The position numbers and the translations under genes were made by a program. This document shows positions 3,075 to 34,878 of a DNA stretch of 37,667 nucleotides, in pieces. A model generated the notes under the pieces. It saw nothing but the letters and a program-made list of their open reading frames with translations. It was not told the DNA's origin and did no database searches. Within the stretch, counting starts at the first letter, position 1. Each line of letters opens with the position of its first letter. The DNA comes from Sphingomonadales bacterium (lineage in GTDB: Bacteria > Pseudomonadota > Alphaproteobacteria > Rhodobacterales > Rhodobacteraceae): the NCBI GenBank assembly GCA_014763785.1, contig JACXUS010000005.1, positions 1-37,667 on the forward strand, read 5' to 3'.

Positions 3075-3422
3075 ATGCTGGAACAGTCGCAGATTCGCGC
3101 CGGTCGCTGGGAAGGGATCTTCGCCGCCGAGACGCATCCCGCGCTCGAGGTCGTGCATCTGGGCGCGGTGCTCGACGGGTTGTCGGTGACCGAGGCCGAG
3201 CCCGGCAAATGGCGCCTGTCGCTGCCGATCCCGGCCGAGACGCTCTCGGATGGGGTGCAGACCTATCTCTTGCGCGCGCCGGGCACGGCCGAGGTGCTGG
3301 GCCGCTTCGTCATCGTTGCGGGCGCGCCCTTGGATGACGATCTGCGCGCCGAGATCGAGCTGATGCGCGCCGAACTCGAGCTGCTGAAAACGGCCTTCCG
3401 CCGCCATTGCGCCGAGGGCTGA
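3075..3422 (+). CDS. Hypothetical protein, probably co-transcribed with the upstream gene
   Basis: 115 aa ORF, 9 nt after the upstream stop, with GAGGAG upstream of its ATG. Confidence 0.7.
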   Translation: MLEQSQIRAGRWEGIFAAETHPALEVVHLGAVLDGLSVTEAEPGKWRLSLPIPAETLSDGVQTYLLRAPGTAEVLGRFVIVAGAPLDDDLRAEIELMRAELELLKTAFRRHCAEG

Positions 3423-3508
3423 GGGGCGCTGGCGCGCCCTTGGCTTCTTCTTGGTCCAAATACTCACAGCGCGGCCGATCCACGGGCGCCGCGCCAAGGA
3501 TTGCGCGC

Positions 3509-10040: not shown

Positions 10041-10105
10041 GGGGCAAGGCCGGGGGTTCCACCCCCGGACCCCCGGGATATTTGGGGCAAGATGAAAGAG
10101 ATGCC

Positions 10106-10765
10106 TCAGAGCCCGATCAGCGCCGGAACCTGCGCCATATCGGTGAAGAGTTCGGCGCCTTCGGCCGCGAGGCGCGGGTTCGGGCCCTGCGGCGCATAGC
10201 CAAGGCAGCGCATTCCGGCGGCTGCGGCGGCGCGGGCGCCGGTTGCGCTGTCCTCGATCACCACGCAGGCTTCGGCGGGCACGCCCAGAATCCGCGCGCA
10301 GTGCAGATAGAGGTCGGGCGCGGGTTTCGGCGCGCCCAGTTCCTGGCCTGAGAACATCCGCCCCTCGAGGCGGGCGCGGATATCCGGGTGCTGGCCCAGC
10401 GTCGCCTCCATCTTGGCCATGCGCCCGTTCGAGCCGACCGCATAGCGGATGCCCGCGGCGTCGAGCCGGTCGAGGAGCTCGGGCACGCCCGGCATCAGAT
10501 CGGTGCCGACGCGCAGGCGGGCATAGAGGCGGGCGTAATAGTGATCCGCCCAATCGCTTGGGAAGGCGGCACCCATCGCGTTGGCCTGTTGGCGCACGCC
10601 CTCGATCGTGCCGCCGATGAAGAGGCGCTCCATCTCGGGGATCGTCATATTCAGGCCCTGCGCCGCGAACTCCTCTTGCAGGAGGGCGAAGGTCGCGGGT
10701 TCGCTGTCCACCAGCACCCCGTCGCAATCGAACAGGACCGCGGCGATGGTTCGGGGGGCGATCAT
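10106..10765 (-). CDS. HAD-family hydrolase (phosphoglycolate phosphatase/beta-phosphoglucomutase-like)
   Basis: AAVLFDCDGVLVDSEPATFALL...GAPKPAPDLYLHCARILGVPAEACVVIEDSATGARAAAAAGM. Confidence 0.92.
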   Translation of the reverse strand: MIAPRTIAAVLFDCDGVLVDSEPATFALLQEEFAAQGLNMTIPEMERLFIGGTIEGVRQQANAMGAAFPSDWADHYYARLYARLRVGTDLMPGVPELLDRLDAAGIRYAVGSNGRMAKMEATLGQHPDIRARLEGRMFSGQELGAPKPAPDLYLHCARILGVPAEACVVIEDSATGARAAAAAGMRCLGYAPQGPNPRLAAEGAELFTDMAQVPALIGL

Positions 10766-26812: not shown

Positions 26813-27397
26813 ATGTGCAGTACCAGTTTCCTGGTTGCCCTTGGGGCCAACCTCCCGTCTGCGGCCGGCGGGCCGGCACAGAGCCTCGTGCGCGCGCTGC
26901 AACTTCTGCCGGAAGAGGGCATACAACCTAAGGCTGTGTCAAGGTTCTACGGCTCGCCTGCCTTCCCGCCCGGCAATGGTCCCGATTATGTGAACGCCTG
27001 TGCGGTGGTCAGCGCCGATCTGAGCGCGTCCGAGCTGCTGGCGGCTTTGCACCGGATCGAGGCGGGGCTCGGCCGCGCCCGCAAGGAGCGTTGGGCCGCG
27101 CGGGTGATCGACCTCGATCTGATTGCGGCGGGCGATCAGGTGCTGCCCGATCGGGCGACCCATGCCGCCTGGCGCGCGCTGCCGCTGGAGGATCAGATGA
27201 AGCGCGCCCCCGAGGGGCCCGTGGTGCCGCATCCGCGCATGCACGAACGCGCCTTCGTGCTGATTCCCCTCGCCGAGATTGCGCCCGGCTGGCGTCACCC
27301 GGTGCTGGGCCGGACCGTGGCCGAGCTGGCCGCAGCCCTGCCCGAGGCGGAAAAAGCCGCACTGGAGCCATTTGCCACGCCGTTTGCCGGGGAATGA
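26813..27397 (+). CDS. folK: 2-amino-4-hydroxy-6-hydroxymethyldihydropteridine diphosphokinase
   Basis: [11 protein letters not shown]...[25 protein letters not shown]...[29 protein letters not shown]...[22 protein letters not shown]. Confidence 0.95.
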
Positions 27398-34422: not shown

Positions 34423-34750
34423 GCGGCTGAAAACCGATCTCTGGGTCCGCGCCTATCTGCGGCGGCTCGAGCTCGCGAATATCCCCGGCTATGTCACCCG
34501 CCGCGGCCAGCCCGATCTGGGCGCTGTCATGGTGAAATGCGCGACGCTTGACGGTAATGCGCGGCTCTGGGCGCGGCAGACCGATCTGATGACAGGGACA
34601 AGCGGCTGGCAGGTGCTGGCCGAGGGCCCCGAGCCCGATGTGGATGCCTCCGCCGCAAAACAGCGCGGCTTCGACCCCGACCTCTGGCTGATCGAGATCG
34701 AAAGCCGCGAGGGCCGCACGCTTCTCGACGAAGACGGCCTGAGCGACTGA
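34412..34750 (+). CDS. DUF1491 family protein
   Basis: RLKTDLWVRAYLRRLELANIPGYVTRRGQPDLGAVMVKC; overlaps the era 3' end. Confidence 0.85.
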   Translation: MARERLKTDLWVRAYLRRLELANIPGYVTRRGQPDLGAVMVKCATLDGNARLWARQTDLMTGTSGWQVLAEGPEPDVDASAAKQRGFDPDLWLIEIESREGRTLLDEDGLSD

Positions 34751-34796
34751 GCCGCCCCCCTTTCCCTTTCATCTTGCCCTAAATATCCTGCGAGGG

Positions 34797-34835
34797 CAGC
34801 CAGTGGTGCGCCATTGGTTCGAGCACCAATGGCTG
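34797..34835 (+). promoter_or_regulatory. Hairpin with alternative pairing in the recO leader
   Basis: CAGCCAGTGGTGC/GCACCAATGGCTG (13 bp, one mismatch) or CCATTGGT/ACCAATGG (8 bp, perfect); both use ACCAATGG. Confidence 0.45.
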
Positions 34836-34878
34836 CGGGGGCAGACAGCCCCCCGGCGCTCTCAACTGGAACCAACCG

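Follow-up and report, generated by a model that had tools for sequence, protein, structure and literature searches.

A bipartite motif with REP-like features at gene 3′ ends in Rhodobacteraceae

Among the closest described systems, known uptake sequences occur at roughly one per kb. Doublets of REP elements are known whose two arms differ (hetero-dimers) without an obvious explanation, and the text available for the CGTC-REP family records a proposal that such differences shield the repeats from hairpin-cleaving enzymes (PMC3733652). Paracoccus, Ruegeria and Roseobacter go unmentioned in the searchable text of that paper (PMC3733652). Studies of RNase E and PNPase in R. sphaeroides report AU-rich cleavage sites or no 3′-end motif. 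Searches of the open-access literature, whose coverage is incomplete, yielded no published description of the element considered here, motif strings included. Nor is it described in the searchable text of the REP and CGTC-REP papers or of a 26-genome structured-RNA survey, which reports other Rhodobacterales motifs.

Copies in the window and anatomy of the repeat

The window, that is, the whole stretch of 37,667 nt analyzed here, contains three copies of a bipartite motif (3 core matches versus 0.17 expected from shuffles, with 3 mismatches allowed). A sequence-only reading had located these strings shortly after stop codons, and their positions and strands proved to be as it gave them: they start 15, 7 and 21 nt past stops that end at 34750 (+), 10106 (–) and 3422 (+), respectively. 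The first, a class A motif of form CTTTCATCTTGC-CCT-AAATATCC at 34766–34788 (+), is a sense half unit past the DUF1491 stop and ahead of recO. Two G/C-rich hairpins follow it, at about 34796–34836 and 34837–34853 (+; RNA fold z –2.2). The second, also class A and in sense orientation, reads CTTTCATCTTGC-CCC-AAATATCCC (10075–10098, –); it lies past the stop of the gene at 10106–10765 (–) and is followed by the hairpin CCGGGGGT-GGA-ACCCCCGG at 10050–10068 (–). The third is a class B motif, CTTCTTCTTGG-TCC-AAATACTC (3444–3465, +), followed at 3469–3494 (+) by the inverted repeat GCGCGGC-N12-GCCGCGC. Gene calls agree with the earlier statement that two of the three copies, those at 10075–10098 and 3444–3465, lie in gaps between convergent genes; the other lies between the co-directional genes DUF1491 and recO. 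The hairpin assigned to each copy stands for both class A motifs, with a second one added at 34837–34853; the repeat at 3469–3494 is atypical for class B and folds no better than shuffles. All three copies are half units, and as single sequences their folds are unremarkable (z –2.2, –0.8 and –0.7 versus shuffles). In the region 3422–3506, synteny between the window and contig C49 of the sister genome G001 begins at position 3506, directly after the class B element, and the gene preceding this element is a different one in G001.

Two sequence classes, sharply separated, coexist in one genome. Class A consists of CTTTCATCTTGC-N3-AAATATCC plus a G/C hairpin. Class B, mostly without a hairpin, is TTCTTCTTGG-N3-AAATACTC/ACGC, with the right block AAATACTC in genome G000 and AAATACGC in the relative G013. 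In G013, a G/C hairpin with double G tracts follows the motif in 27/29 class A copies versus 3/51 class B copies, the latter mostly running on into A-rich or other sequence. The hairpins of class A close with GCCCCCGG and lack a T run. The distance from TTG to AAATA is constant at 4 nt. Block letters carry nearly 2 bits each and N3 carries about 0–0.6 bits, the first spacer base reaching 1.1–1.5 bits in two class A sets.

In its complete form the unit is an inverted pair: two motif copies have their 5′ ends toward each other and, in class A, G/C hairpins lie on both flanks. A half unit is one motif, with one hairpin in class A. Full units fold far better than shuffles (RNA fold, z –10.3 and –8.8). 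Across 56 inverted pairs from three genomes, block letters are mostly the same in both arms, whereas N2 is the same in only 6 pairs (11%) versus 16.6 expected, and the three N positions together are identical in 43/168 comparisons versus 65.0 expected (0/5000 permutations as low in either case). The stem of the pair retains an internal loop, its arms being mismatched at the middle N. Between motif and final hairpin, unrelated units of two genomes carry a conserved multi-hairpin insert, GGTGAGACGGGAT..TCCCGTCGAACGGGC.GCCCGTGGCAGCCC (L001, about 98–210 (–); L160, 9130–9400; L163, 11318–11440), which has no Rfam match. For the window and the full-unit loci, Rfam likewise gave 0 matches above the gathering cut-off, the best sub-threshold hit being a microRNA model.

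Genomic spread and placement at gene ends

The core TCTTGS-N3-AAATAYNC has about 161–170 matches in the source genome (161 with 2 mismatches allowed) and 0 for a reversed-pattern control. A stricter core gave 266 copies in the 3.8 Mb of G013. The density is ~1 copy per 13–20 kb. A relaxed core gave about 55–220 copies per genome in 18 genomes of the genus. The three copies are far from alone, and the similar strings suggested earlier for other Rhodobacterales are indeed present, in many copies, across Rhodobacteraceae genomes. Among the matches listed, a strict pattern was found in roughly half of the 296 genomes searched from the order, all from one family, and many of these genomes have tens to >100 copies each. 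Outside Rhodobacteraceae, a search of 192 alphaproteobacterial genomes gave 0–5 matches in non-family genomes, which is the control level. Plasmids of the family also carry copies; in C. sphaeroides and C. azotoformans, for example, gap and fba are separated by an antisense half unit. A phage origin was rejected, with no match among phage records. In some genomes the original string appears scarce because the letters differ there. Thus, the dialect is mostly CTTTG-N3-AAATATCC in R. aestuarii, CTTGG-N3-AAATACCT in Sinirhodobacter sp. WL0062 and CTTGC-N3-AAATACCT in S. hankyongi.

Along the chromosome, an exploratory comparison showed low element density near dnaA in two cases, G294 C1 (KS P = 0.019) and G013 C1, the latter with 20 plus-strand sites at 2.0–2.2 Mb versus 0 in its initial 200 kb. 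GC skew in G013 is too weak for placing origin and terminus. A replichore strand bias of the KOPS/Chi type, hinted at among the matches listed, vanished in the full list.

Placement was counted over ~1.9 Mb of sequence drawn from ten genus genomes, with genes from a simple home-made caller. The 117 units, pooled from this single genus and non-independent, comprise 40 in convergent, 67 in co-directional and 7 in divergent gaps, and 3 in coding sequence. Intergenic bases predict 14.6, 60.1 and 39.3, respectively, for the 114 intergenic units (chi-square about 71). G013 alone gave 12/17/1 versus 4.0/18.0/8.0 expected. Together with the copies found genome-wide, these counts agree with the earlier suggestion of a dispersed REP-like element at gene 3′ ends. 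Sense half units cluster close to stop codons, often beginning 0–6 nt past the stop, which bears out the proximity proposed for them; the strand bias expected alongside is absent, with 19 sense and 17 antisense half units in co-directional gaps. Such parity speaks against recognition on a single RNA strand, as at a simple RNase E site, and strand-specific RNase E processing past the stop codon, one of the roles first proposed, is not borne out. The absence of strand bias had been named in advance as speaking against the element; it strikes the RNase E version and leaves a bidirectional 3′-end role untouched. The two classes, the inverted pair as the complete form and antisense half units as common as sense ones all lay beyond the view of the sequence-only reading.

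At one orthologous convergent site the element stands where several relatives have a canonical terminator. The site after the gene at 10106–10765 has a half unit in G000, G001, G008, G011 and G015 and a full unit in G006 and G007. For the same gene in G016, a canonical A-stem-T hairpin takes the place of the element; such a hairpin also occurs at this site beside another neighbor gene in G005, G012, G014, G017 and G002. In convergent gaps of 30–80 nt, a canonical terminator was found at 0/12 gene ends with the element versus 16/40 without it (P = 0.01). Over all gene ends with gaps of 50–300 nt, the presence of one does not exclude the other (odds ratio about 0.9). Strict exclusion therefore holds in short convergent gaps only, not in wider or co-directional gaps. 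Half units also occur within operons (DUF1491-recO and gap-fba), suggesting that they cannot, as a rule, bring about full termination.

Conservation, in-place change and competing explanations

Decayed copies are few. Over 19 letters, G013 has 78 copies with 0–1 mismatch (46 paired and 32 single), 0 with 2–3 and one with 4. Among copies with at most 4, mismatches average 0.39 for singles and 0.41 for paired copies. Since N3, its first base excepted, is near random between 2-bit blocks, the blocks are not explained by whole units having recently been duplicated or gene-converted. The conserved blocks, the fixed spacer, the lack of a decay tail and the equality of singles and pairs indicate that selection acts on each copy.

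Letters change at sites that stay in place. At the DUF1491-recO site the element is present in ten relatives with differing letters, and in the three relatives with a dialect listed these letters are the commonest dialect of the own genome. In the sister genome G001, the left block of class A (ATCC-tail) is CTGTG in 64/64 copies, with no intermediates seen, while G000 has mostly CTTGC and a minority of CTGTG, the two sometimes sharing a contig. Both orthologous window sites differ in this way, CTTGC versus CTGTG in G001. At DUF1491, G001 and R. viridis have the same right block and the same hairpin; therefore, the left block changed in place. Letters changed together at all sites between the sister species, which suggests a putative cell factor reading the motifs. 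Within the sequence evidence, this concerted dialect change is the strongest sign suggestive of a reader that co-evolves with its motif.

Between species at 84–94% nucleotide identity, the compared sites mostly persist (3/3 for G006/G007). One site of the G009/G010/G014 set is deleted or absent in G009, without obvious target duplication; G002/G017 show one decayed copy; and there is a likely direct-repeat deletion among close species. At G014 C160, about 26855–26920, the unit is inverted relative to the orthologous site in G010 and G009. Tandem direct half-unit arrays with a 152-bp period occur at L122, L126 and L130 (G327 C5), and G327 has further tandem arrays at 125–166 bp spacing.

Could the repeats be a mobile, REPIN-like family? 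Here, the inverted pair would be non-autonomous and served by a transposase in trans, singles would be its remnants, and 3′ ends would merely tolerate insertion. The inverted doublets with short spacers, the several classes per genome, the extragenic location and the hetero-dimer arms are as the accessible text describes for REP/REPIN (PMC3116915, PMC3733652), and the tandem copies in G327 and the unit inversion and deletion between close species also fit. Yet the Y1 transposase (PF01797) was found in 0/18 genus genomes, with control genomes positive, and a RAYT-driven REP was rejected on this ground. Moreover, the model predicts drifting singles, whereas singles are as perfect as pairs; orthologous sites persist while the left block alone changes; and N3 and loops are not homogenized. 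We regard such mobility as unlikely.

A motif resembling uptake sequences, as in Neisseria and Pasteurellaceae, would be kept perfect by biased uptake and recombination, which would also shift its dialect everywhere, and its pairs would serve secondarily as terminators. Such a motif would be orientation-independent, as this one is. Its inverted pairs are enriched between convergent genes, as USS pairs are (PMC1852404), and the per-genome dialects and concerted change in place would follow. But one copy per about 13–20 kb is far sparser than known uptake sequences, coding DNA is nearly empty (3/117 units), and the motif exceeds known uptake sequences in length and comes in two classes per genome; this explanation seems to us quite unlikely. 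It is equally improbable that an RNA-level 3′-end hairpin or RNase III-type signal suffices, through stem, internal loop and G/C hairpins and without a dedicated DNA-binding factor: the strong folding of full units, the arms that match in blocks and mismatch at N2/N3, and the near-universal hairpins of class A favor it, but stemless half units retain exact block letters in both orientations, class B mostly lacks hairpins, and pairing alone accounts neither for the fixed letters nor for a dialect shared across the genome.

A possible boundary element and its relation to known systems

Our preferred reading, held tentatively, is that the family is a Rhodobacteraceae-specific bipartite repeat at transcription-unit ends, a REP/BIME-like bidirectional boundary element with a putative co-evolving factor. 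The motif probably points to an uncharacterized factor. It may be read as double-stranded DNA, which would account for the lack of orientation bias; the simplest candidate for a sequence-specific reader is a DNA-binding protein, and classes A and B probably have separate factor specificities. As RNA or single-stranded DNA, a full unit would fold into a long stem that contains a small internal loop and, in class A, has G/C hairpins on its flanks. Bound site and RNA hairpins would jointly limit read-through from both sides, and the resulting 3′ ends would be capped by hairpins, similar to the action proposed for REP/BIME elements. Half units within operons (DUF1491-recO; gap-fba) would modulate or stabilize transcripts rather than fully stop transcription. 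More speculatively, a family-specific reader with class A and class B specificities might bind ~200 transcript-end sites, and a shift in its specificity might rewrite all of them in place. If so, the repeats would form a boundary system that works in both directions across the whole genome and whose code evolves fast.

Rhodobacter and Roseobacter relatives are of importance as laboratory, photosynthetic and marine bacteria, and a near-perfect motif at as many as a few hundred of their gene ends has a bearing on transcript ends in them. Duplication or gene conversion does not easily account for a concerted change at orthologous sites that stay fixed, with N3 and hairpins untouched, and what keeps bacterial intergenic repeats alike becomes a directly testable question.

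Of the known systems, REP/BIME/REPIN elements are similar in being short extragenic repeats with a hairpin, in hundreds of copies and in inverted doublets (56 pairs here) whose arms often differ at stem positions. In contrast to REP/REPIN, the class A and B consensus of three genomes lacks a GTAG tag, the motif is long and bipartite with a random N3, the genus has no Y1/RAYT transposase, and singles are as conserved as doublets. CGTC-REPs, as far as the available text describes them, are likewise alphaproteobacterial palindromic repeats without a dedicated transposase, with hetero-dimers preferred in several families (PMC3733652). Measured against that description, our consensus has neither the CGTC (or TGTC/CCTC) tag nor the CCA tail, nor an 8–9 bp stem starting with A/T pairs (PMC3733652). 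Paired DUS/USS terminators share the orientation-free motif, inverted pairs between convergent genes and genome dialects. The present element differs from them in its far lower density (266 in 3.8 Mb), its near-absence from coding sequence (3/117 units), its longer bipartite motif and its two classes per genome. With canonical intrinsic terminators, finally, the element shares genomic position, and the two interchange at one orthologous convergent site; yet its G/C hairpin is followed by no U-tract, its blocks are conserved, and its half units lie within operons too.
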